Below, in pieces: positions 3,158 through 23,583 of a DNA stretch of 36,997 bases (position 1 is the first letter of the stretch; each line of letters begins with the position of its first letter). Source of the DNA: Propionivibrio sp. (GTDB lineage: Bacteria; Pseudomonadota; Gammaproteobacteria; Burkholderiales; Rhodocyclaceae); contig NZ_JAGOIT010000028.1 in NCBI RefSeq assembly GCF_017995515.1, forward strand, positions 1-36,997, given 5' to 3'. Both the position numbers and the translations under genes were made by a program. The notes under the pieces were generated by a model. The model saw nothing but the letters and a program-made list of their open reading frames with translations. It ran no database searches and was not told the DNA's origin.

Positions 3158-3949
3158 TTATTCCCCCAGGGTCTCGCGCACGATGCGCTTGAACGACCCG
3201 TCGCGCTTCATCTCGAGCAGCGCCTTGTTGAAGCAGCCGAGCAGCTCCGTTTTCGCCGCCGTCTTGTTGAAGGCCAGATACGCGGGCGAACTGGCGAGCA
3301 AGACACCGGCCGGCTCGATCCCGAGCATGCCCGCCGCTGCGAGATTCGCGCGACCGGACTCTTCCACCGCCAGGATGGCATCGACACGCCCGTCCTTCAG
3401 TTTCAGGAAATTCGAACGATCACTCGACACTTCCTCCGTCGCAATCGAACCGTCCCGGCTCGCGCGATCGAAGTCATCGCCATACGACCAGCCGCGCAGG
3501 ACGCCGACCTTCCTGCCGTACAGATCGGCCACCGAGCGGAATTCGAACGGCTGCGCACGCCGGTAGTAAACGACGACGTTTTCAACGTGGATCGGGTCGC
3601 TGAAATCGTACCTGGCCAGCCGTTCGCTGTTCTTGTAGAGGCCGCCGATGCCGGCGTGCGCCTTGTCGATCTCGACGAATGCGCGCTTCCAGGGCTTGGC
3701 CTCGATGCGCACATTGTCGTGGCAACGGCTGAGCGCGACCCGCAGAATGGCCGGGTAGAGACCGAACGGATAGCCGGCGCGGCTCGACATGAAAGGTGCG
3801 TTGTCGGCATCGACGTTGACGATGAGCGGCGGCGGTACTGCCCCGCCATCCTGCGCGGCGTGCGCCTGCCCGGCGTGCGCGACGACACCGGCGACCGGAC
3901 CGGCAATCGCTGCGAAGAGGAATGGCAGCAGCCGGAGCATCATTGTCAT
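3158..3949 (-). CDS. Transporter substrate-binding domain protein (SBP_bac_3-like), periplasmic
   Basis: Product of 263 aa. An N-terminal signal peptide (MMLRLLPFLFAAIAGPVAG, cleavage probably after AQAHA near residue 31) precedes a type-3 solute-binding fold resembling amino-acid-binding proteins: NVDADNAPFMS, YPFGLYPAILRVAL, WKRAFVEIDKAHAGIGGLYKN, FSDPIHVENVVVYYRR, LYGRKVGVLRGWSYG, GRVDAILAVEESG. No permease or ATPase gene is adjacent, so it may be a stand-alone binding or sensory protein; similar orphan proteins are common in Proteobacteria. The start is taken at the ATG at 3949, directly before the signal peptide; an ATG at 3982 and upstream codons would add an Arg-rich stretch unlike a signal sequence. 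No clear ribosome binding site. The ligand is unknown. Confidence 0.75.
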   Translation of the reverse strand: MTMMLRLLPFLFAAIAGPVAGVVAHAGQAHAAQDGGAVPPPLIVNVDADNAPFMSSRAGYPFGLYPAILRVALSRCHDNVRIEAKPWKRAFVEIDKAHAGIGGLYKNSERLARYDFSDPIHVENVVVYYRRAQPFEFRSVADLYGRKVGVLRGWSYGDDFDRASRDGSIATEEVSSDRSNFLKLKDGRVDAILAVEESGRANLAAAGMLGIEPAGVLLASSPAYLAFNKTAAKTELLGCFNKALLEMKRDGSFKRIVRETLGE

Positions 3950-4025
3950 TGGCGGTACGGACGGACTGGGGACGAGTTCCATTCTACGCGCGCCGCGCCG
4001 GCAGCGGTCGCGCCATCCCGCCGTC

Positions 4026-6044
4026 TCAGAATTCCAGCGGGTCCACTTCGAGATGCCAGCGCAGTCGCGACGGGGCCTTGATCGCTGCCAGAAGTTCTCC
4101 CCACTGGCCAAGGAAAGTCTGCAAGGCGCGGCGCGAGGACGATTCGACGAGCAGCTGCGCGCGTTCGAAATTGGCCCGCCGCGCCATGCGCATCGGCACC
4201 GGGTCGTAGAGCATCACGTCGGCGTGCGCGGCGGCGTCCGGCCAGGCACGCGCCGTCGTCAGGAAGGCGAGCGAGTCGGCGAGCTGCGGCGCTTCGGCGC
4301 GCAGCATGGCCTGGTAGGCGTAGGGCGGAAAGCCGGCCTGCTCGCGCTCCTTCAACTGCGCGTCGGCGAAGGCTGGGTAGTCGTGGCGGACGAGCGCCGC
4401 GTAGAGCGGGTGTTCGGGGAATTGCGTCTGGATCAGCACTTCGCCGGGCAGCTCGGCGCGCCCGGCGCGTCCGGCGACCTGCATCAGCTGCGCGAACAAC
4501 CGTTCGGGCGCGCGCCAGTCGGAGGCGAACAGCGCGGCGTCGGCGCCGAGCGCGCCAACCAGCGTCAGCCTGGGGAAGTCATGCCCCTTGGCCAGCATCT
4601 GCGTGCCGACGAGGATGTCGGCGGCGCCGTCGTGGATCTGCTCGACGAGCGCCTCCCACTGCTTGCGGCTCTTCGCCGAGTCGCGGTCGACGCGCAGGAT
4701 GCGCGCCTGCGGGAAGCGTTCGGCGAGCACCGCCTCGATGCGCTGCGTGCCGCGCCCGAAGGGCTGGATGTCCTGGTTGCCGCAGGTCGGGCAGGCGCGC
4801 GGCACGCGGCACTCGAAGCCGCAGTGATGGCAGCGCAGGCGGCCGTCGGCGAGGTGCAGCACGAGGTTGGCGGCGCAGCGCTGGCAGCGCGAGATCCAGC
4901 CGCAGGCGGTGCAGGTGAGCACCGGGGCATAGCCGCGCCGGTTGAGGAAGACGAGGCTCTGTTCGCCACGTTCGAGCCGCTGGCCGAGGGCGCGCAGAAG
5001 GACGCCGGAGAGGCCGTCCTGCAGTTTTTCGAGCCGCGTGTCGATGCGCTGGACGGCGGGCAGGCGGGCGTTGGTCACGGCGCGCTCGCGCAAGGTGAGC
5101 AGCGTGTAGCGCGCCGGCGTGCGCGTGTCGGTCGCGTTCGCCCAGCTCTCCAGCGACGGCGTCGCCGAACCGAGCACGATCGGGATGCCGCGTTCGCGCG
5201 CACGGAAGACGGCGACGTCGCGCGCGGAGTAGCGCATGCCGTCCTGCTGCTTGAACGAGGCGTCGTGCTCCTCGTCGACGACGATCAGCCCGAGGTCGGG
5301 CAGCGGGGTGAAAATCGCGAGGCGTGTGCCGAGCACGATGCGCGCCGAGCCGTCGAGCGCCGCGCGCCAGTTGCGCGTGCGCGCCGCCTCGGTGAGTTCA
5401 CTGTGCAGGCTGGTCAGACCGGCGTCGGGAAAGCGCGCCGCGACGCGCGCTTCGAGCTGCGGCGTCAGGTTGATTTCCGGCACCAGCAGCAGAACCTGGC
5501 GGCCGGCGGCGAGCGCGCGCTCGACGAGGCGCAGGTAGACCTCGGTCTTGCCGCTGCCGGTGACGCCGTGCAGGAGGTAGGCGCGAAAACCGCCGCCTGT
5601 TTCGCCATCGCCGGCGATCCGTTCCAGCGCCGCCTGTTGCTCGTGCGTGAGTTCGGGCGGCGTTTGCGTCGCCGTGCTCTTTGCCGCACGCCGCGCGCCG
5701 CGCGCCTTCGGCGGATCGACCCGGCGCAGGCCGGCCGGTAGCGTCGAGATCATCACCTCGCCGAGCGGCGCCTGGTAATAGCCGGCGCAGAACTCGCACA
5801 GGCGGAACCAGTCGGCGGGCAGCGCCGGCAGGTCACGCAGGACGGCTTCGACCGACTTCAGCTGTTCGGGCGCGAAGTCGCTGCTTTCGGGCAGTTCGAC
5901 GACGACGCCGATCTTCGCCTGCCGGCCGAAGGGCACGCGCACGCGCACGCCGATGTCGGCCACCGTCAGCACTTCACCGGCGGGGGCGAGGTAGTCGAAA
6001 AAGCGGTGCAGCGGCACGTCGAGCGCCACGCGAACTATCTGCAT
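4026..6044 (-). CDS. priA: Primosomal protein N' (PriA), replication-restart helicase
   Basis: Product of 672 aa, a superfamily-2 3'-5' helicase that recognises stalled forks and reloads the replisome through PriB/DnaT/DnaC. An N-terminal 3'-DNA-binding domain begins MQIVRVALDVPLHRFFDY. Walker A (GVTGSGKT) lies near residues 160-167 and DEEH (motif II) near 256. The zinc-binding region (CTACGWISRCQRC, CHHCGFEC, CPTCGN) is complete with eight Cys, and helicase motifs V and VI (VGTQMLAKGHDFPRL, QVAGRAGR) follow. The length is slightly below the E. coli enzyme. The start at 6044 is chosen because family members begin at this MQIVRVAL segment; an in-frame codon at 6083 is less likely. It lies downstream of an AT-rich gap and the hemE gene. 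Confidence 0.97.
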   Translation of the reverse strand: MQIVRVALDVPLHRFFDYLAPAGEVLTVADIGVRVRVPFGRQAKIGVVVELPESSDFAPEQLKSVEAVLRDLPALPADWFRLCEFCAGYYQAPLGEVMISTLPAGLRRVDPPKARGARRAAKSTATQTPPELTHEQQAALERIAGDGETGGGFRAYLLHGVTGSGKTEVYLRLVERALAAGRQVLLLVPEINLTPQLEARVAARFPDAGLTSLHSELTEAARTRNWRAALDGSARIVLGTRLAIFTPLPDLGLIVVDEEHDASFKQQDGMRYSARDVAVFRARERGIPIVLGSATPSLESWANATDTRTPARYTLLTLRERAVTNARLPAVQRIDTRLEKLQDGLSGVLLRALGQRLERGEQSLVFLNRRGYAPVLTCTACGWISRCQRCAANLVLHLADGRLRCHHCGFECRVPRACPTCGNQDIQPFGRGTQRIEAVLAERFPQARILRVDRDSAKSRKQWEALVEQIHDGAADILVGTQMLAKGHDFPRLTLVGALGADAALFASDWRAPERLFAQLMQVAGRAGRAELPGEVLIQTQFPEHPLYAALVRHDYPAFADAQLKEREQAGFPPYAYQAMLRAEAPQLADSLAFLTTARAWPDAAAHADVMLYDPVPMRMARRANFERAQLLVESSSRRALQTFLGQWGELLAAIKAPSRLRWHLEVDPLEF

Positions 6045-13932: not shown

Positions 13933-14558
13933 CGACTGCCTTCCTCTTCGCTGACCGGCTCGTCTTCGGGCGAACTGACCGGCGCCGCCTCGGCGTTGAC
14001 GAAGGGCCAGCGCGCCCACTCCGACTCGAGGTTCCAGTCCTTGTTCGACAGGGCGCTCACCTGGAAGGTCTTGGGCATCTGCGTGAGATCGAGGCGCAGG
14101 CGCAGCTTCGCCGTACCCGTCTGGCCGACGCCGACTTCGCCCTTGTCGATGACGACCCAGTTGCGCAGGCGCGACATCACGCGCAACGCTTCTTCCAGCG
14201 ACGGAAAGCTCTGATGCAGACCGCCGGTGGACACGCGGTACTGGCGTGTCAGGGCGTGGTAGTAGAGCTGGAAGGTCTTGTTGCGCCGCAGCACCTGCTC
14301 GTCGAACCAGTACCAGCGCGACTTGCTCAGCTCGAACTCGGCCGCGAAGTAGAGGACCACGCCCTTGTTCACCGCTTCTTCGAGACGGTGGTTGAAGTTG
14401 ATGTTGAAGTCGGCGGAAGCGACGTACTCGCCGTCGTCGAGCACCAGCTGCGGATTGCGCACGCTGATGCCGGTTCCCGCCGCCAGGGCTACCTGCGCAC
14501 AAAGCCACAGGAAGAGTGCGGCGAGGAAGAACCTAGTCCGGCTTGCGCAGCAAGGCAT
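13929..14558 (-). CDS. DUF4390 domain-containing secreted protein
   Basis: Product of 209 aa. The N-terminal signal peptide (TRFFLAALFLWLCAQVALAAG, cleavage after ALA near residue 26) is followed by a beta-rich domain. It has the family segments LDDGEYVASADFNINFNHRLEEAVNKG, YFAAEFELSKSRWYWFDE and LYYHALTRQYRVSTGG here given in pieces, typical of DUF4390. The C-terminus is an acidic tail (SSPEDEPVSEEEGSR). The function is unknown. The family is consistently found just before ntrY in Betaproteobacteria, so a role in NtrY signal input in the periplasm is a reasonable guess but not shown. The start at 14558 overlaps the rsmB end by 26 bp, and its stop overlaps the ntrY start (ATGA). Confidence 0.88.
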   Translation of the reverse strand: MPCCASRTRFFLAALFLWLCAQVALAAGTGISVRNPQLVLDDGEYVASADFNINFNHRLEEAVNKGVVLYFAAEFELSKSRWYWFDEQVLRRNKTFQLYYHALTRQYRVSTGGLHQSFPSLEEALRVMSRLRNWVVIDKGEVGVGQTGTAKLRLRLDLTQMPKTFQVSALSNKDWNLESEWARWPFVNAEAAPVSSPEDEPVSEEEGSR

Positions 14559-15948
14559 AATAGAACCCGTCGCGGTCGTCCTGCGGCAACAGCCGCTCCT
14601 CGCTCACCCGCTGTGCGCCGGGCTGGCGCACGAGGAAGGCGTCGATCTGCGCACCGTTCTCTTCCGGGAAAACGGAGCACGTCGCGTAGAGCAAGCGGCC
14701 GCCCGGCTTGAGCACCGCCCAGAGGTCGTCGAGGATCTGCGCCTGCGCATGCACCAGGCGCCGGATGTCGCTCTCGCGGCGCAACCGCTTGATGTCCGGA
14801 TGACGGCGGACGACGCCGGAGGCCGAACAGGGTACGTCGGCCAGAATCGCGTCGAACGGACGGCCGTCCCACCAGTGCTTTATATCGCTGCAATCGGCGG
14901 CCTTGACCTCGGCGCGCAGTCCGAGGCGCTGCAGGTTCTCCTCGATGCGCCGCGTGCGGCCGGCGTCGATGTCGAGCGCCACGAGGTCGAGGTCGGCCGA
15001 TTCCAGCAGGTGCGCCGTCTTGCCGCCGGGCGCCGCGCAGGCGTCGAGCACACGTGCGCCGGCGGCCGGCGCCAGCAGTTCGGCCGCGCGTTGCGCGCCG
15101 GCGTCCTGCACCGAGACGAGTCCGTCGAAAAAGCCGGGCAGGGCATCGACCGGCACCGCCCTCTCCAGCACCAGTCCGGCGTGACCCACCGGGCGCGCCG
15201 GGAGTCCGGCGGCCGCGAGCCGGCCGAGATAGTCGGCGACCGTGCCTCGGCGCAGATTGACGCGCAGCGTCATCGGCGGCGGCTCGTTGCCGGCGGCGAC
15301 GATCGCCTGCCAGTCGTCGCGATACGCCCGGCGCAGGCGCGCCAGCCACCAGCGCGGATGCTGGAAAACGGCCTCTTCATCCTGAGCCATCGCCGCCAGC
15401 AGCTCGGTACGCTGGCGCAGGAAGTTCCTGAGCACGCCGTTGACCAGCCCCTTGAAGACGCCGCCCGCCAGTTCGCCGGCGGCGATGACCGCCTGATCGA
15501 CGACCGTGTGCGGCGCATCGGGACGCGTGTCGAGGCGATACAGCGCGGCCAGCAGCAAGGCTTGCGTCTCGCCGTGCGTCAGCGGTTTGGTCATCAGCCG
15601 GCCGAGGATGAACTCACCCCAGCCGTAACGGCGCAGCACGCCGTAGGCAACATCCTGCGCCGCCGCGCGCGCCGAAGGCGGCTCCGACGCGAGGACGCCG
15701 AGCGCCTCGCTCAGGCTCTTGCCGGCATGGACGGCCGCCAGCACACGCGCCGCCAGCAACAGGCTCCAGCCGAGGGAGTCTGCGGCCAGCGCCGAGATCG
15801 ACGGCGACGTGGCAGCGGCCACCGGCCGATCCTTTTTGACGACGCGCACACGCCGCGACGCGGAGGGTGATGACGAAGGCGGAGAAGCAGGAGTGGATGT
15901 AGCCAAGGCGATGATTCGCAATGTGTTGAGGTTGATCGAGTTTAGCAT
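14533..15948 (-). CDS. rsmB: 16S rRNA (cytosine(967)-C(5))-methyltransferase RsmB
   Basis: Product of 471 aa. It methylates C967 of 16S rRNA with SAM. An N-terminal NusB-like RNA-binding domain (about 65-190, containing VAYGVLRRYGWGEFIL and LRNFLRQRTELL) precedes the Rossmann methyltransferase domain. Motif I is VLDACAAPGGKTAHLLE. Motif IV is ILADVPCSASGVVRRHPDIK with its Pro-Cys, and motif VI is LLYATCS with catalytic Cys424. The N-terminal about 45 residues before the NusB part are Ser/Pro-rich and unlike the family, so the true start may be further in. The ATG at 15948 is the first reasonable one but has no clear ribosome binding site. It heads the rsmB-DUF4390-ntrY-ntrX run and is divergent from the signalling islet. 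Confidence 0.95.
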   Translation of the reverse strand: MLNSINLNTLRIIALATSTPASPPSSSPSASRRVRVVKKDRPVAAATSPSISALAADSLGWSLLLAARVLAAVHAGKSLSEALGVLASEPPSARAAAQDVAYGVLRRYGWGEFILGRLMTKPLTHGETQALLLAALYRLDTRPDAPHTVVDQAVIAAGELAGGVFKGLVNGVLRNFLRQRTELLAAMAQDEEAVFQHPRWWLARLRRAYRDDWQAIVAAGNEPPPMTLRVNLRRGTVADYLGRLAAAGLPARPVGHAGLVLERAVPVDALPGFFDGLVSVQDAGAQRAAELLAPAAGARVLDACAAPGGKTAHLLESADLDLVALDIDAGRTRRIEENLQRLGLRAEVKAADCSDIKHWWDGRPFDAILADVPCSASGVVRRHPDIKRLRRESDIRRLVHAQAQILDDLWAVLKPGGRLLYATCSVFPEENGAQIDAFLVRQPGAQRVSEERLLPQDDRDGFYYALLRKPD

Positions 15949-16068
15949 GATGACGGCTGGCTCATCGCGCGCGCAGCGCCGTCGCAACGCCCGCTCCAGC
16001 ATCGGTGAAGTCTCGTCTCGCCGGGTGGTTTTTTTGCCGCCCTTTCCTTACTATCTCGCAACAGGGAA

Positions 16069-18336
16069 ATGATCCTGGGGAAAGGGAAGTCATTGAGTTC
16101 CGATAACGACGACATCGTTTTCATCGCCGAGGACGCCAAAGGTGGCGCGACCTGGCCATCGACGCAACGCGATCCGTGGCGCATCCTGATCGTCGACGAC
16201 GACCCGGACGTCCACGAAGCGACGCGCTTCACGCTCGCCGATACCCTGATCCTGAGTCGGCCGCTGCGGCTCCTGCACGCCTACTCGGGTGCCGAGGCCC
16301 TGACCCTCCTGCGCGAGCAAAAGGACATCGCCGTGATCCTGCTCGACGTGGTGATGGAGAGCGACGACGCCGGCCTGCGCACCGTCGGCACGATCCGCAA
16401 CGATCTCAAGCTGCACAACACGCGCATCGTCCTGCGTACCGGCCAGCCCGGCCAGGCGCCGGAACTGGAAACGATCACGCGTTACGACATCAACGACTAC
16501 AAGAGCAAGAGCGAACTCACCCGGATCAAGCTGTTCACCACGCTGACCGGAGCGATCCGTTCCTTCGACCAGCTGCAGCGCCTCGACGCCAACCGCAAGG
16601 GGCTGGAGAAGATCGTCGCCGCAAGCAATCACCTGATCGCCGAACAGGGGCTACGCGCCTTCGCCGAAGGCGTCATCACGCAGATCGCCAGCCTGATCGG
16701 CACCGAGCCGGAGGGCGTCGTCTGTGCGGCGACGGATGAACCGGAGCAAGGCGTCAATACGCAACAATTCCGCATCATCGCCGCGGCCGGCAACTTTCGT
16801 CACCTCATCCAGCGCCGCCTGAGCGACATCGACGACGCGCGCATCGTCCAGCAGCTTTCGCTGGCGCTGGAGAAGAAGCAGAACATCATCCAGCCGCACT
16901 GCATCACGCTTTACTTCCAGAAGACGCCGGAGCGCGGTTTCGCCGCCTTCATCGACTCGGCGCTGCCGATCCGGGAAGTCGATCAGGAGCTGCTGCGCGT
17001 GTTCTGCACGAACATCGCGCTTTGCGCGAAGAACGTCGACCTCGTCGAGGAGCTGCGCCAGGACGCTTTCCTCGACCGGCAGCTGCGCCTGCCCAACCGC
17101 ACCGCGCTCGTCTGCGAGCTGAGCGACCGGCTGGCCCTCGAACGCAGCCAGGGCCAGACGCTGGCCGTGGTCGACATCGACCAGTTTTCAACCACGCACG
17201 ACATCCTCGGCAACGATTACGTCGAGTCGCTGCTGCGGCTCACCGCCCGGCGGCTGCGCGATGCCTTTCCGCCGGCCGTCTTCATCGCGCGGCTCGCCGG
17301 TGACGCCTTCGCCGTGCTCGGGGCGCACGACCTCGTTACCGCCGAAGCCGTCCAGCAGTGTTTCATCGCGCCGTTTTCCATCGAGAAGATCGACCACGTC
17401 GTTTCCGTTTGTACCGGCCTCGTGCATCTCGACGGCACGCCGCGATCGGCCATCGAATACGTGAAGGACGGCTTTCTCGCGCTGAAGAAGGCGAAGTCGC
17501 GCGGGATCGGGCAGTCGGTGATCTATTCCGAGGAGATGGGACGCAAGGCGCGCGAGCGCTCGCATCTCCTGCGCGACCTGCGCCTCGCCTTCGGCCACGA
17601 GCAACTTTTCCTCACCTACCAGCCGCAGATCGATCTCGCCAGCGGCCGCATCGTCGGTGTCGAAGCGCTGCTGCGCTGGCGGCGCAAGGACGGCGAACTG
17701 ATCCCGCCCGATCGTTTCATCCCGGTCGCCGAACAGTCGGGGCTGATCGTCGGCCTCGGGGGGTGGATCGTGCAGACCGCGCTGATCGCCCTGCAGCGTT
17801 TTCAGGCGCCCGGCCTGCCGACGCTGCGCATGGCCGTGAACGTATCGCCAGTGCAGCTGCGCCAGCCGAATTTCCTCGGCCTCATCGACGAGGCGATCCG
17901 GCAGACCGGAACCGATCCGGCACAGCTCGAGATTGAAATCACCGAGTCGGTCGCCGTCGGCGGCCTCGATCCGATCGTCGAGTTGCTCGAAAAGATCCGC
18001 GCACTCGGCGTCTCGGTCGCGCTCGACGACTTCGGCACCGGCTACTCGTCGCTCTCCTACCTGCAAAAACTCCCGGCCGATCGGCTGAAAATCGACCGCA
18101 GCTTCGTCGCAGCGCTGGAGAACGACGACCAGGGGACGCGCATCGCACGCACGATCATTCTCCTCGGGCGCGAACTCAAGCTCGAAGTCATCGCCGAAGG
18201 CGTCGAGTCGCAAACCGTCGCCGACGCGCTCGTCGCGCTCGGCTGCGAAACCGCACAGGGTTACCACTACGCCCGGCCGATGCCGGAAGACGAATTCGTC
18301 GAATGGCTGGCCCGCCGCAACTGGCAGGAGGGTTGA
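16069..18336 (+). CDS. Response regulator REC-DUF3369-GGDEF(degenerate)-EAL, likely c-di-GMP phosphodiesterase
   Basis: Product of 755 aa. The receiver domain (38-165) has the acidic pocket Asp43-45, phosphoacceptor Asp93 (LLDVVM) and the Lys of INDYKSKSEL. A DUF3369 sensor-like domain spans about 180-340. The GGDEF-type domain (345-495) has AGDAF at 410-414 in place of GGDEF, so cyclase activity is not expected. The EAL domain (500-750) has E532-A533-L534 followed by LRWR, NVSPVQL, EITES, LDDFGTGYSSLSYL (653-658 core), KIDRSFV, AEGVES and AQGYHY. All metal- and substrate-binding motifs look intact. The predicted activity is c-di-GMP to pGpG, switched by phosphorylation. The ATG at 16069 is preceded by AGGGAA; a TTG at 16093 with AAGGGAAG is an alternative. 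It is the first gene of the islet. Confidence 0.92.
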   Translation: MILGKGKSLSSDNDDIVFIAEDAKGGATWPSTQRDPWRILIVDDDPDVHEATRFTLADTLILSRPLRLLHAYSGAEALTLLREQKDIAVILLDVVMESDDAGLRTVGTIRNDLKLHNTRIVLRTGQPGQAPELETITRYDINDYKSKSELTRIKLFTTLTGAIRSFDQLQRLDANRKGLEKIVAASNHLIAEQGLRAFAEGVITQIASLIGTEPEGVVCAATDEPEQGVNTQQFRIIAAAGNFRHLIQRRLSDIDDARIVQQLSLALEKKQNIIQPHCITLYFQKTPERGFAAFIDSALPIREVDQELLRVFCTNIALCAKNVDLVEELRQDAFLDRQLRLPNRTALVCELSDRLALERSQGQTLAVVDIDQFSTTHDILGNDYVESLLRLTARRLRDAFPPAVFIARLAGDAFAVLGAHDLVTAEAVQQCFIAPFSIEKIDHVVSVCTGLVHLDGTPRSAIEYVKDGFLALKKAKSRGIGQSVIYSEEMGRKARERSHLLRDLRLAFGHEQLFLTYQPQIDLASGRIVGVEALLRWRRKDGELIPPDRFIPVAEQSGLIVGLGGWIVQTALIALQRFQAPGLPTLRMAVNVSPVQLRQPNFLGLIDEAIRQTGTDPAQLEIEITESVAVGGLDPIVELLEKIRALGVSVALDDFGTGYSSLSYLQKLPADRLKIDRSFVAALENDDQGTRIARTIILLGRELKLEVIAEGVESQTVADALVALGCETAQGYHYARPMPEDEFVEWLARRNWQEG

Positions 18337-18340
18337 GGAC

Positions 18341-19450
18341 ATGCGCTTTCCACGTTTGTGCGACGGGCTATTCCCCGGCGTCGTCGCGCTGCTGCTCGCC
18401 GGCTGTGCCGAACCGCCGCCGCTGCGCATCGGCTTCCTCGCCGAACTGAGCGGGCGCAGCGCCGACCTCGGCGAGGCGGCGCGCAACGGCGTCATCCTCG
18501 CCGCCGACCAGTACCGCGAAGGCCGGCGCGAAGACAAGCGCACGCTCGAAATCATCGTCCGCGACACCGGCCAGACGCCGGAAAGCGCGGCGAGCGCGGC
18601 GCAGGAGCTGGTTGCCGCGGGCGCCGACCTCATCATCGGTCCGACCAACAGCGCGATGGTGGACAACATCCTGCCGACCGTCGAGAAGGCCGGCGTCGTG
18701 CTGCTCACGCCGACGGCGTCGGCGGTCAAGTTTCACGGCAAGGACGACATGTTGTTCCGCATCAACCTGACGACGCGCGACAACGGGCGCCTCTACGCAG
18801 AACACTACTTCGCCAAGGGCTTCAAGCGCATCAGCGCCGCCGCCAACGAGAACAACCGCAGCTTCGCGGAAAGCTGGCTCAGCGAATTCAGAACGGCCTT
18901 CGAGGCGCTGGGCGGCGAAATCGTCAGCGCGCCGTTCTTCGACTCCGGCGCAGCCAGCCACGCGCCGATCATCGACGCGATGCTCGCCCCCAGGCCGGAC
19001 GCGCTGCTCTTCATCGCCAACGCGGTCGACGCCGCCCGCCTGGCGCAGCAGGCACGCAAGGCGGCGCCAGACACGCCGCTGATCGCCGCTGAATGGGCCG
19101 GCACCGCACAGTTGATCGAGCTCGGCGGGCGTGCGGTCGAGGGACTGATGATCGTGCAGAACTACAACCAGGACGACACTTCGCCGCGCTTTCAGTCATT
19201 CCGCTCGGCCTACGCCGAGCGCTTCGGCAAGGAACCGGTGTTCGGCAGCGTGCTCGCACACGACGCGGCGACCGTCGTGCTCGACGCACTGTCGCGCCGG
19301 CCGGCCGGGATGAGCGCCAAGGAAGCGCTGATCAAGCTCGGACCCTACACCGCGTTGCAGCAGCAGATCGAGTTCGACGCCAACGGCGACACGACGCGCG
19401 TGGCCTACTTCATGGCGATCCGCGATGGCCGCTTCGTACGCGCGCAATGA
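18341..19450 (+). CDS. Leu/Ile/Val-binding-type periplasmic lipoprotein (Peripla_BP_6)
   Basis: Product of 369 aa. A short signal peptide ends in the lipobox LLAGC with Cys22, so it should be lipid-anchored in the periplasm. The mature part starts LRIGFLAELSGRSADLGEAARNG, the typical opening of branched-chain amino acid, amide or urea binding proteins. It continues with the hinge segments IIGPTNSAMVDNILPTVE, LLTPTASAVKFHGKDD, FFDSGAASHAPIIDAM and VLAHDAATVVLDAL. GGAGGGTTGAGG precedes the ATG by a short gap, only 4 bp after the previous stop. No ABC permease or ATPase gene is present, and the next gene, a histidine kinase, overlaps its stop by 4 bp. The arrangement implies that it presents a ligand to that kinase, as TorT does for TorS or LuxP for LuxQ. 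The ligand is unknown. Confidence 0.9.
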   Translation: MRFPRLCDGLFPGVVALLLAGCAEPPPLRIGFLAELSGRSADLGEAARNGVILAADQYREGRREDKRTLEIIVRDTGQTPESAASAAQELVAAGADLIIGPTNSAMVDNILPTVEKAGVVLLTPTASAVKFHGKDDMLFRINLTTRDNGRLYAEHYFAKGFKRISAAANENNRSFAESWLSEFRTAFEALGGEIVSAPFFDSGAASHAPIIDAMLAPRPDALLFIANAVDAARLAQQARKAAPDTPLIAAEWAGTAQLIELGGRAVEGLMIVQNYNQDDTSPRFQSFRSAYAERFGKEPVFGSVLAHDAATVVLDALSRRPAGMSAKEALIKLGPYTALQQQIEFDANGDTTRVAYFMAIRDGRFVRAQ

Positions 19451-21744
19451 ACTACCGTCGCTGGCGCCTGCGCACCGGGCTGATCGGGTTGCTCTCACTG
19501 ATTTCGCTGATCAGCTTTCTGCTCGCCGGCGCCACGCTCTTCCTCATCCGTCTGCCGCAGATCAGCCGTGAGAGCCAGGAGGATCTGCGCGTCGAAGTCT
19601 CCGATCTGTCGCTGCGCAGCGAAGCCATACTCGGAGCGATCCAGACGCAGCTCGAACTGATCGCCACCGCCTTGCGCAATCCGGGGACGACGCCGGAGAA
19701 GACCCTGGAGCGCGCACTCGGCCGGAGCAGCGCGTTCACCGCCATCTACCAGGTCGACCGCGACGGCAGGGTGATCAACGCCAGCCTGAAGTCCTGGCTC
19801 GGTCATACGCGGCGGCGCGAACTCATCGGCAACGACCTGTCGCGCGACCCGATCTTCCAGCGCACGCTCAAGGATGCGCGAACCGTCTGGAGCGACAAGT
19901 ACCTCTCGCCGGTGTCGAGCGAGATCGCCGTCAGTATCGGCACCCCGGCCGGGGACACCGTGATCATCGGCGAGATATCGCTCGCCCACATCATGGATAC
20001 CCTGCGCGTCGCCTCGGGACGCAGGGATCTGATGGTGTGGATCATCGACCGCAACGGCGAGATCCTCGCCGACAGCGAGGACGCCGCGCGTGTCGGCGTC
20101 GTTAACTTGCGCCATCTGCCGCTGCTCGGGGAAGCGCATCATTCCGGCTCGCTCGCCAACACGCTGTCGTTCGAGGGCAAGACCTTCGACGCGGCACTGG
20201 CGCATTCGCACCTGCTCGACTGGTACTTTGTCATCCGCGCACCGGCCGGCCTCGCCAATCCGCGCATTGCGTCGACGCTCGACCTGTGGATCGCCGTGCT
20301 CGGCGTAACCCTGCTGCTCGGCATCGTACTGACGCCGCTGTGGGCGACGCGCATGGCGCGGCCGATCGCCGCGCTCGCCCAGCGCGCGCGCAGCATCGCC
20401 GACGGCGAAACGCCCGGGCCGTGGCCGCGCGGCCGCATCGTCGAATTCGACGGCCTGTCGCGCGATCTTGAACGCATGGCGACTTCGCTGCGCGAACAGC
20501 AGCAGGAGCTGGAAACCGTGTTCAACGCGTCGCCGGTCGGCATGGTCGTGCTCGATCCGCAACGCGATTACGTCTTTATCCGCGTCAACGCCGGCTGCTC
20601 CGAACTCCTCGCTGCGACACCCGAACAACTCATCGGCAAGACCGGGAAAACGCTCGACCTGTGGTGTAACGCCGGCGAACGCGACCGCTTCTACCAAGCA
20701 CTGCAGGACAAGCACTTCGTCGAATTTGAAACGCGCTTCCGCCGGCTGGACGGACGCGAATTCGTCGCCGCGCTGTCAGTCAGCTACTTCGATAGCGGCG
20801 GACAACGGCGCGCGGTCATGGTCGCGCGCGATGTCACCGAACTGCGCAGCATCGAAGGCGAGATCCGCGCGCTCAACAGCGAGCTCGAACAACGCGTCGA
20901 ACGGCGCACGGCGGAACTGTTCGAGGCGAACGCGCGGCTATCGACGACGATCGAACACCTCAAGCTGACGCAGGCCGAGCTGGTCCGGAGCGAGAAACTC
21001 GCCTCGCTCGGTGCGCTCGTCGCCGGCATCGCACACGAGCTGAACACACCGCTCGGCAACGGCGTCATGGCGCTGTCGACGCTCATCGCGTCGCTGCGTA
21101 CCTTCAGGAAGGAGATGGAGAGTGGAATCAAGCGCTCCAGCCTCGACAAGCTGCTCGAAGCGATGGATGCCGGCACCGACATCGCCTTCCGCAACCTGTC
21201 GCGCGCCGCCGAGCTGGTGGCGAGCTTCAAGCAGGTGGCGGCCGACCAGAGTTCGTCGCAGCGCCGTTCTTTCATGCTCGGCGAGGTCATCGAGGAAATC
21301 ATCCTGACGCTTCGCCCCTTGCTCAAGCGCAGCGACGTCGCTGTCCGCGTCGACATTGCCGAAGGATTATTGATGGACAGCTACCCCGGACCGCTCGGCC
21401 AGGTCATTACCAATCTGATCAGCAACGCCGTCACGCACGCCTTCGAGGACCGTGACGATCGCCGGGTGACGATTACCGCGACGCCGGACGGCAACGAGGC
21501 AGTGCGCATCACGCTCGCCGACAACGGCAACGGCGTCCCCGACACGCTACTGCCGCGCATCTTCGACCCCTTCGTCACCACGCGCATGGGGCGCGGCGGC
21601 GTCGGGCTCGGCCTGCACATCTGCCACAACCTCGTCATCCAGACGCTCGGCGGTCGCATCGCGGTCGCTTCGACCGCTGCCGGCACGACCTTCACCCTGA
21701 CGCTCCCGCTTTGCGCACCGGGCGAGCAATCCGCACACGGATGA
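19447..21744 (+). CDS. Membrane sensor histidine kinase (dCache-HAMP-PAS-HisKA-HATPase)
   Basis: Product of 765 aa. Transmembrane segment 1 (about 10-32) and segment 2 (about 278-300) enclose a periplasmic double-Cache-like domain. HAMP (300-352) and a PAS domain (about 355-470, VFNASPVGMVVLD) follow, then a coiled coil (SELEQRVERRTAELFEANARL in part). The HisKA box has His530 (GIAHELNTPLGN), and HATPase_c has NLISNAVTHAF, DNGNGVPD and GVGLGLHICHNLV. There is no receiver domain, so the likely target is the REC-EAL protein encoded two genes upstream. The start at 19447 is the ATGA overlap with the lipoprotein gene; upstream codons in this frame run inside that gene and are excluded. Confidence 0.93.
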   Translation: MNYRRWRLRTGLIGLLSLISLISFLLAGATLFLIRLPQISRESQEDLRVEVSDLSLRSEAILGAIQTQLELIATALRNPGTTPEKTLERALGRSSAFTAIYQVDRDGRVINASLKSWLGHTRRRELIGNDLSRDPIFQRTLKDARTVWSDKYLSPVSSEIAVSIGTPAGDTVIIGEISLAHIMDTLRVASGRRDLMVWIIDRNGEILADSEDAARVGVVNLRHLPLLGEAHHSGSLANTLSFEGKTFDAALAHSHLLDWYFVIRAPAGLANPRIASTLDLWIAVLGVTLLLGIVLTPLWATRMARPIAALAQRARSIADGETPGPWPRGRIVEFDGLSRDLERMATSLREQQQELETVFNASPVGMVVLDPQRDYVFIRVNAGCSELLAATPEQLIGKTGKTLDLWCNAGERDRFYQALQDKHFVEFETRFRRLDGREFVAALSVSYFDSGGQRRAVMVARDVTELRSIEGEIRALNSELEQRVERRTAELFEANARLSTTIEHLKLTQAELVRSEKLASLGALVAGIAHELNTPLGNGVMALSTLIASLRTFRKEMESGIKRSSLDKLLEAMDAGTDIAFRNLSRAAELVASFKQVAADQSSSQRRSFMLGEVIEEIILTLRPLLKRSDVAVRVDIAEGLLMDSYPGPLGQVITNLISNAVTHAFEDRDDRRVTITATPDGNEAVRITLADNGNGVPDTLLPRIFDPFVTTRMGRGGVGLGLHICHNLVIQTLGGRIAVASTAAGTTFTLTLPLCAPGEQSAHG

Positions 21745-22676
21745 CCAGAGGCTGCAACAATCAGCCAACGCGCCGCTTTCGGCTGCTCGCAGCCATGCTC
21801 GCCGGCTTTCTGCCGCTATCGGCTTCGGCCTGGAACTTCACCGGGCACCGCCTTTCGGCGTGCATCGCGTGGGAGCAGTTGCCGCCGGCGAGCCGCGAGA
21901 AAGTCGGCATGCTCTTGCGCGCGCATCCGGACTACGCGCACTGGACACGCAAGGCCAAGGGCGATGCAATTGACCGCACGGCGTTCATCGAAGCCTCGAC
22001 CTGGGCCGACCGCATCCGCCATGACCCGCGCTTCCATGCCGCCGACGAGCCGGCCACACGATTGCTGCCGGGATTCCCGGACATGGAGAGCCACGGCGAC
22101 TGGCATTACGTGAATCGTCCGCTCCCCGATCAGGTGAGAGCAACAGATGACGACGAGGCGCGCGGACAACTCGCCCGGCGACTTGTGACTCTGACGCGCA
22201 CACTCACCGCTCACGGTGCCTCGGCGACCGCGTTCAACGCGAAGGTCTACGCCTTGCCCTGGCTCATCCATCTCGTCGCCGACGCGCATCAGCCGCTGCA
22301 CGTGGTCAACGCGGAGGCCGCCTGGCTGGCGCCGCTCGACGATCCCAAGCGACTGAATCCGTCGGCGCCGCGTCGGCGGATCGTCAGCCTGCACGCCCTG
22401 TGGGACGATCTTCCCGGTGCGTCGAACCTGTCCGGAAACAAGCTCGACTCGGCGTGCCGGGCGCTCGCTGCAAGGTACCCGAAGCCGGCGCCGTCGAGCC
22501 CGGCACAGTGGATAGAAGAAAGCTGGCAGATCGCCGGGCAAGACGGCTTTCCCGCCGATTACGCCCGCCAGCAGCGGGTCGGCAAGCCGTTCTACGAGCG
22601 CGCCCACGAACTCGCCAACCAGCGCATCGTCAGCGCCGGCCACCGTCTGGCCGGTGTGCTGCGCAGGCTGCCGTAA
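21741..22676 (+). CDS. S1/P1-type nuclease, periplasmic, zinc-dependent
   Basis: Product of 311 aa. The signal peptide (FRLLAAMLAGFLPLSASA) should be cut after Ala30, leaving Trp31 as the new N-terminus. In S1/P1 nucleases this residue binds zinc through its amino group and carbonyl. Other expected zinc ligands are present in order: His36 (NFTGHR), Asp90 (TWADRIR), His122 (DWHYVN), His177 and Asp181 (LIHLVADAHQ), His187 (QPLH), His218 and Asp222 (LHALWDD). Members cut single-stranded DNA and RNA and release 3'-nucleotides. The ATG at 21741 overlaps the kinase stop (ATGA), so it is translationally coupled to the signalling genes. It ends 10 bp from the convergent htpX gene. Confidence 0.9.
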   Translation: MTRGCNNQPTRRFRLLAAMLAGFLPLSASAWNFTGHRLSACIAWEQLPPASREKVGMLLRAHPDYAHWTRKAKGDAIDRTAFIEASTWADRIRHDPRFHAADEPATRLLPGFPDMESHGDWHYVNRPLPDQVRATDDDEARGQLARRLVTLTRTLTAHGASATAFNAKVYALPWLIHLVADAHQPLHVVNAEAAWLAPLDDPKRLNPSAPRRRIVSLHALWDDLPGASNLSGNKLDSACRALAARYPKPAPSSPAQWIEESWQIAGQDGFPADYARQQRVGKPFYERAHELANQRIVSAGHRLAGVLRRLP

Positions 22677-22686
22677 ATCGTTTCGG

Positions 22687-23535
22687 TCAGGCGCGTGCCA
22701 GTTCGCGCAGGCGCGCGACGCGCTCCTCGGTCGCCGGGTGCGTGCTGAACAGGCTGGCGATGCCGCCGCCCGAGAGCGGGTTCATGATCATCATCTGCGC
22801 CGTCGCCGGATGTGCCTCGGCCGTCGGCATCGGGATGCCGCGCGCATAGGAATCGATCTTGATCAGCGCATCGGCCAGTGCATCCGGATCGCCGCAGATC
22901 TCGGCGCCACCCCGGTCGGCCTCGAACTCACGCGAGCGCGAGATGGCCATCTGGATCAGGGATGCCGCGAGCGGTGCCAAGAGGGCGACCGCCAGACCGG
23001 CGATCGGATTGGCCGGACGGCCTTCCTCGTCGCGTCCGCCGAAGAACATGGCGAAGTTGGCGAGCGCCGAGATCGCCCCGGCCATGGTCGCCGAAATCGT
23101 GGAGATCAGGATGTCGCGATGCCGCACGTGCGCCAGCTCATGCGCCATCACGCCGCGAATCTCGCGCGCCGAGAGCATGCGCAGGATGCCCGTCGTCGCG
23201 GCGACGGCGGCGTGCTCGGGATTGCGCCCGGTGGCGAAGGCGTTGGGCTGCGCCTCGTCGATCAAATAGACGCGCGGCATCGGCAGTCCGGCGCGTTGCG
23301 CGAGTTCGCGCACCATGGCGTAGAACTGCGGCGCCGAGGTCTCGTCGACCTCCTGCGCGTTGTACATCTTGAGCACCATCGAATCGGAGAACCAGTAAGC
23401 AAAGAGGTTCATCGCGCCGCCGAAGAGCAGCGCCATGACCATGCCCGAGGCGCCGCCGATGTACGTCCCGATCACGCCGAAAAGCGCCATGATCGCCGCC
23501 ATCAGCAGCGATGTCTTCAACCAGTTGCCGAACAT
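22687..23535 (-). CDS. htpX: Protease HtpX homologue (membrane zinc metalloprotease)
   Basis: Product of 282 aa of the M48 family, taking part in quality control of inner-membrane proteins. Two N-terminal membrane segments (about 7-28 and 32-52) and two more in the middle (about 148-165 and 180-198) are visible. HELAH (about 132-136) provides two zinc ligands and the catalytic Glu, and [15 protein letters not shown] provides the third ligand Glu. [17 protein letters not shown] is the usual edge strand. The start at ATG 23535 is fixed by AAGGAGG 7 nt upstream; a GTG two codons earlier overlaps the end of that site and is unlikely. In this region it lies between fmt and the convergent nuclease gene. 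Confidence 0.95.
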
Positions 23536-23583
23536 TTCCACACCTCCTTGTAGCCCGCGCTTGCGCGCGGCCGTGTCGATTCA

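Follow-up and report, generated by a model that had tools for sequence, protein, structure and literature searches.

Do the four plus-strand genes at positions 16069-22676 of a Propionivibrio sp. contig (NZ_JAGOIT010000028.1) form one signalling circuit, or does a sensing cassette lie beside a nuclease gene that belongs to the site? The window, that is, the whole stretch analysed, is this entire contig of 36,997 nucleotides, from a genome of 3.56 Mb in 194 contigs that is estimated to be 96.8% complete. The first gene (16069-18336, + strand) encodes a response regulator of 755 amino acids with Pfam Response_reg, DUF3369, GGDEF (degenerate) and EAL domains, a predicted phosphodiesterase of cyclic diguanylate (c-di-GMP). 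It is followed by genes for a leucine/isoleucine/valine (LIV)-type binding lipoprotein (18341-19450, +; 369 amino acids; Pfam Peripla_BP_6, E 1.5e-44; lipobox LLAGC with Cys22), a dCache-HAMP-PAS-HisKA-HATPase sensor histidine kinase (19447-21744, +; 765 amino acids) and a secreted S1/P1-type nuclease (21741-22676, +; 311 amino acids; Pfam S1-P1_nuclease, E 8.9e-29). The first-pass annotation had read the four as one operon. Its gene layout was confirmed from the open reading frames and the joint sequences, with a 4-nucleotide gap after the first gene and ATGA overlaps at 19447 and 21741, and Pfam matches, obtained for 14 window proteins, bore out its domain assignments in all four genes, with no receiver domain found in the Pfam search of the kinase. 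Tight joints are common in bacteria, however, and by themselves they prove little.

We consider it probable that the first three genes constitute a sensing cassette, operating as a signalling chain and lodged between rsmB and a resident nuclease gene that is a bystander. The same-strand order REC-DUF3369-GGDEF-EAL, lipoprotein, dCache kinase was found at 20 loci: 18 in 17 of 249 genomes of the family (10 of 68 genera, with a pair of loci in G143), plus two in named contigs, L076 and L077. Such recurrence places the linkage of the trio beyond chance. The record of one locus bears the name Candidatus Accumulibacter contiguus; another, L077 (JAKLEJ010000153.1), is in a contig titled as a Verrucomicrobia metagenome-assembled genome, and its trio, 58-66% identical to that of the window, possibly reflects a binning error or a transfer. 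Seven full-length relatives of the kinase (33-56% identity) all have the lipoprotein gene upstream, and five of them (L062-L066) have the EAL gene as well, which is absent at L067 and L068. Among 24 loci fetched by a match to the kinase core (L008-L031), a set that includes a few trio or lipoprotein loci, 14 carry a part match to the REC-DUF3369-GGDEF-EAL protein within 1.5-kb flanks, the match being to the REC/DUF3369 part in 10 of the 14. A contig scan with a single protein query gave 3 loci. The genes after the trio kinase vary; in L062 and L077, for example, an EamA-type gene is found. Small lipoprotein-like genes, similar by eye, follow the kinase at L065:10341-10871 and L069:8246-8728; the L065 protein had no Pfam match.

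Does the lipoprotein belong with the kinase in particular, or with the cassette as a whole? We tabulated 73 lipoprotein rows and classed 72 of them by what surrounds the gene, leaving out L145, where no downstream start was found; the classes come from phmmer hits processed by our own script, not from curated annotation. Trios account for 21 rows (20 loci), a dCache kinase without upstream EAL gene for 12, a dCache-GGDEF-EAL protein for 11, a dCache hybrid kinase for 6 and another kinase or REC gene for 7; 13 rows fall elsewhere (8 of them with a divergent kinase gene) and 2 are cut by a contig end. A dCache receptor gene lies downstream, on the same strand and within 280 nucleotides, in 51 of the 72 rows, and the lipoprotein and kinase genes overlap by 4 nucleotides in 16 of 19 trio-class rows, with starts chosen by the script. 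In a lipoprotein tree (a quick tree with long branches, for which the rows of L064, a single trio locus with two lipoprotein genes, were moved into the trio class), the number of class changes was 18, against a mean of 44.8 for shuffled classes, and as low a value occurred in none of 200 shuffles. The window lipoprotein belongs to a 7-row set made up entirely of trios (SH-aLRT 99). Distances between lipoproteins also follow those between dCache domains (Spearman 0.55, permuted maximum 0.23), and the nearest neighbour is the same for both in 36 of 51 pairs. The frequency of the pairing, the clustering and the distances together describe a conserved binding-protein and receptor gene pair of the LuxPQ/TorTS type. 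Along with the 20 loci, the tree against output type and the distance correlation support the earlier proposal that binding lipoprotein, dCache kinase and REC-EAL protein make up one unit.

The 11 loci where a dCache-GGDEF-EAL protein follows the lipoprotein (L127, L139, L140, L142, L147, L157, L159, L163, L164, L166 and L171) resemble a one-protein version of the circuit, with a layout similar to that of NspS-MbaA. Counting these with the 20 trios, a c-di-GMP enzyme is the output at 31 tallied loci. A wider idea, which we hold tentatively and at close to even chances, is that this lipoprotein family, almost confined to one bacterial family, serves as a plug-in reader of ligands: it would have kept its dCache receptors through several exchanges of output, between a plain kinase partnered by a REC-EAL protein, a hybrid kinase and a direct GGDEF-EAL output. 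At L064:10530-12777 (minus strand) the lipoprotein gene is duplicated in tandem inside one trio, possibly giving two ligands to one kinase.

What would the output of the trio be? The window regulator has the receiver residues D43/D44, D93 and T124 and the EAL residues E532, N591, D653/D654, K674, E710 and Q730, which is the intact set found in regulator phosphodiesterases of the RocR/VieA/PvrR type. Across the 20 trios, E532, N591, D653 and K674 are kept in all, D654 and E710 in 19, and Q730 in 19 with one gap; D43, D44, D93 and T124 are kept in 18, with two gaps. We infer from these residues that the output is c-di-GMP hydrolysis under the control of phosphorylation. The GGDEF signature reads RLAGDAF in the window, and the canonical GG(D/E)EF signature is absent from all 20 trio proteins; a working diguanylate cyclase was rejected on the degenerate window motif. 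Among the best 25 of 27 NCBIfam families compared, the DibA and PvrR equivalogs were not reached (321.6 bits against a cut-off of 980, and 142.7 against 580). The DUF3369 domain has been associated with HD-GYP proteins, according to an excerpt of PMC9756655.

On the kinase side, Pfam recognised dCache_1, PAS and HATPase_c, with HAMP and HisKA below the curated cut-offs, and residues H530, N656/N660, D692, G694, G696, G718, G720 and G722 are identical in all 20 trio kinases. The periplasmic dCache domain (residues 52-263, encoded at 19600-20235, +) scores 63.2 bits against a cut-off of 45 and is matched by fold too; a dCache_1 match at E 0.01 was obtained for 46 of 52 receptors. The window sensor region alone had no match to the PDB by phmmer, whereas alignment A4 gave 17 matches up to E 0.1, including 5ERE at 0.0018, a solved chain that joins a part resembling a solute-binding protein (SBP) and a dCache part. 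The 50 structure matches listed include neither the LuxQ nor the TorS domain, which excludes nothing.

The chain that we favour would run as follows. Outside the inner membrane, the lipid-anchored LIV-type protein would bind a small ligand, which is probably an amino acid or a similar compound. In its loaded or empty form it would act on the dCache domain of the kinase, as the consistent pairing, the correlated divergence and the one-chain arrangement of 5ERE suggest. Phosphate would then go from the kinase to the REC domain of the regulator that the first gene encodes, and the EAL domain of that regulator would hydrolyse c-di-GMP; intact residues and the recurring gene order point to both steps. 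By its motif, the GGDEF domain would have no cyclase activity. The nuclease, translationally abutted to the kinase, would stand outside the circuit; it would have kept its ancestral position, and any co-transcription with the trio may be incidental.

Can we say more of the ligand and of the lipoprotein that would bind it? Cys22 is invariant in the 11 rows of lipoprotein alignment A1, and a strict lipobox pattern occurs in 61 of the 72 lipoproteins, 8 of the 11 misses showing a Cys at a similar place. In 3td9 and 4gnr the position aligned with E251 is acidic, which lends some support to what is otherwise a guess, an amino-acid-like ligand. With the A1 profile (11 sequences) at a threshold of E 1e-70 and 5 to 8 scored candidates per genome, so that genome counts are lower bounds, the subfamily was found in at least 55 of 249 family genomes and 18 of 68 genera, the window genome included. 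Among 369 genomes drawn evenly from the class, of which the rows listed include three from the same order, the profile matched in only two, that of the window and G469, whose lipoprotein sits on the longest branch of the tree; on this count we rejected the idea of a system widespread in the class. An ordinary ATP-binding cassette importer was provisionally rejected as well: no LIV permease was recognised among the listed window reading frames, with Pfam run on 14 of the proteins, and, among the matches listed for 20 genomes, the permeases near SBPs of this subfamily lie 5-7 kb away, at G057 and G143. The genome of the sister contig L078, an assembly that may be incomplete, gave no BPD_transp_2 match, and a LIV importer is therefore not required as partner of the lipoprotein in that genome. 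Elsewhere in the window genome (G000:C56:16390-17475, L113), another lipoprotein of the subfamily precedes a hybrid-type kinase gene in which no dCache match was recognised. The window also holds an SBP_bac_3 binding protein gene (3158-4111, -), again with no transporter recognised beside it.

If the trio is a unit, where does the nuclease come from? Its S1-P1_nuclease match scores 101.5 bits against a cut-off of 29.5. S1/P1 nucleases have a Trp at the mature N-terminus and His/Asp metal ligands; read by eye, the window protein has Trp31 behind a signal-peptide-like stretch and the His/Asp motifs. The gene lies between an rsmB-type 16S rRNA methyltransferase gene (14533-16002, -; Pfam Methyltr_RsmB-F, E 4.5e-53), the left landmark of what synteny indicates to be the ancestral site, and an htpX-type M48 peptidase gene (22687-23541, -; Pfam Peptidase_M48, E 4.2e-36), the right landmark; fmt and def follow, their products matching Formyl_trans_N and Pep_deformylase. 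The nuclease is present in 37 of 150 family genomes, the window's included, and 29 of the 36 other genomes were examined at the nuclease locus with 1.5-kb flanks. In 26 of these 29 relatives' loci it stands at the same landmarks (RsmB in 24; HtpX and Fmt in 2, where the flank does not reach RsmB), and a trio gene is beside it in none of the 29. Conversely, a nuclease follows the trio kinase only in the window and in L078, where the order is lipoprotein, kinase, nuclease, htpX, fmt (nuclease 83%, kinase 88% and HtpX 98% identical); the L078 contig opens partway through the lipoprotein gene, which leaves any EAL gene out of view. The fetched stretches of the 19 other trio loci contain no nuclease match, those of L062, L077 and L151 extending less than 1.1 kb beyond the kinase. 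The relatives' loci and these stretches give no linkage of the nuclease beyond chance. Of the four families said to occur together, three do recur as a group and the nuclease seldom joins them.

The nuclease and its efflux neighbour were followed within the family. In 16 of the 29 loci a cation-efflux gene lies directly upstream of the nuclease on the same strand (set L033-L061; examples are L070:10365-11549 and L071:10802-11746), overlapping or abutting its start in the three joints read (L070, L071 and L072), and both efflux proteins tested in full carry Cation_efflux and ZT_dimer Pfam domains. Within the genus, G105 and G141 have the efflux-nuclease pair and G052 has no nuclease match. The window has no efflux gene at the site; its genome contains, at the edge of a contig, a C-terminal fragment with 61% identity and, besides, a distant relative (28% identity). 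Most likely the trio took the place of the cation-efflux gene at the rsmB-nuclease site, and the nuclease, by synteny, most likely lies beside the trio by chance of location. The adjacency is best corrected to a cassette beside a resident gene. S1/P1 enzymes need zinc, and it is a testable idea that the cation exporter helps to load a periplasmic zinc nuclease; this cation-efflux/zinc-nuclease pair would be the likelier functional partnership at the rsmB-htpX site.

How do the other explanations fare? The first-pass annotation imagined a four-gene circuit, in which one signal would lower c-di-GMP and make the nuclease as its purposeful last product, in a single dispersal or scavenging response. 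The family match and motifs of the nuclease agree with this, as does its ATGA overlap with the kinase gene, which is also present in L078, as would be expected if the coupling were useful. The synteny speaks otherwise: the nuclease keeps its landmarks in relatives without any trio gene, G105 and G141 included, and it is missing from the other trio stretches. On these grounds we rejected the nuclease as a member of the signalling operon, its role as last product of the signal is unsupported, and the four-gene circuit appears very improbable. It is also improbable that the kinase serves another regulator, with the EAL gene a mere neighbour and its product no partner of the kinase. Most other classes have the lipoprotein-receptor pair without an EAL gene; however, the same-strand trio stands at 20 loci, and the REC-DUF3369-GGDEF-EAL part match accompanies more than half of the kinase-core loci. 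Unlikely, if less so, is a direct sensing of the ligand by the dCache domain, with a lipoprotein that concentrates or delivers ligand, serves an uptake system elsewhere or is functionally unlinked. Amino-acid chemoreceptor dCache structures are among the best structure matches of the window sensor domain, the window genome has 39 BPD_transp_2 matches, and two neighbouring SBP and kinase pairs of P. aeruginosa did not interact according to PMC11113362. Set against this, D134 and I136 of the window domain align with R126 and W128 of PctA, in the five-residue ligand motif of that receptor (two of the five positions were compared); the permeases near such an SBP, among the matches listed, are the distant ones at G057 and G143, and a receptor gene lies downstream of the lipoprotein in 51 of the 72 rows.

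Several observations weigh against the signalling chain that we prefer, beyond the shared ATGA overlap. Asp is absent from position +2 in all 61 lipoboxes, which under the sorting rule of E. coli points to the outer membrane, a location awkward for contact with an inner-membrane kinase. L069 has the EAL and kinase genes without the lipoprotein. Among the trios, the EAL gene of L062 (4380-6629, minus) carries a stop, that of L173 (7744-9958, minus) is split over two frames, that of L138 is truncated where the contig begins, and the product of the L077 gene (1454-3712) lacks at least two catalytic residues; judged by sequence, the phosphodiesterase genes of L062, L173 and L077 look damaged or inactive. 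Relatedness accounts for part of the distance correlation and of the clustering of classes. At 10 of the 29 nuclease loci the flank holds RsmB but no efflux gene, which makes the replacement step less sure than the residence of the nuclease. As for published cases, PMC11113362 reports, in the parts available, that for two P. aeruginosa kinases with nearby sbp genes, AgtS and AruS, no binding to the sensor domain was detected, and that an sbp gene next to a kinase gene does not always imply a functional link. A dCache domain can itself be the ligand binder; that of 5ERE is listed with cytosine in PMC8694187, and PMC6234866 describes 5ERE as a cytosolic receptor.

TorT-TorS and LuxP-LuxQ of Vibrio are among the closest known parallels to the trio, TorT-TorS being a binding-protein-activated sensor kinase and LuxP a periplasmic binding protein that acts on the cache-type domain of a kinase. 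LuxQ, a hybrid kinase, feeds into a phosphorelay, and MbaA is itself a GGDEF-EAL protein; in contrast, the window has a LIV-type lipoprotein and a kinase without receiver, beside a REC-EAL protein, and combines a kinase, a separate phosphodiesterase and another binding-protein family than NspS, whose layout is closer to the 11 lipoprotein and dCache-GGDEF-EAL loci. Like the trio, NspS-MbaA puts c-di-GMP turnover under a binding protein for an extracellular signal (PMC9993111, in part), and the LuxQ cache is listed without a ligand of its own in the excerpt of PMC8694187. The Roc system networks periplasmic SBP-domain kinases (RocS1, RocS2) with a REC-EAL phosphodiesterase, RocR (PMC12051241, in part), but there the SBP_bac_3 domains are inside the kinases, unlike the separate LIV-type lipoprotein and dCache sensor here. 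An sbp gene adjoining a kinase gene is a known pattern (PMC11113362), about 10 binding-protein-activated sensor kinases have been characterised, such as BctC-BctE (PMC9602780), and kinases, cyclases and phosphodiesterases are all known targets of binding proteins (PMC9602780, PMC9993111, PMC8846402), all from excerpts; none of the characterised binding-protein/kinase cases in the excerpt of PMC9602780 has a REC-DUF3369-GGDEF-EAL partner. A search of the open-licence PubMed Central literature found no description of the trio and nothing on bacterial S1/P1 nucleases. Binding-protein signalling and REC-EAL networks being already known, the undescribed trio is a variant of binding-protein-assisted signalling.

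If right, this variant adds a LIV-type binding lipoprotein whose signal reaches a separate REC-EAL phosphodiesterase by way of a dCache kinase, and the lipoprotein-dCache pair, if the exchange of outputs is true, would be a reusable front end for c-di-GMP control. It would also provide a natural comparative series, in which one binding-protein family is joined to several output formats, suited to testing the dialogue between binding protein and cache domain and to learning when gene neighbours are true partners.

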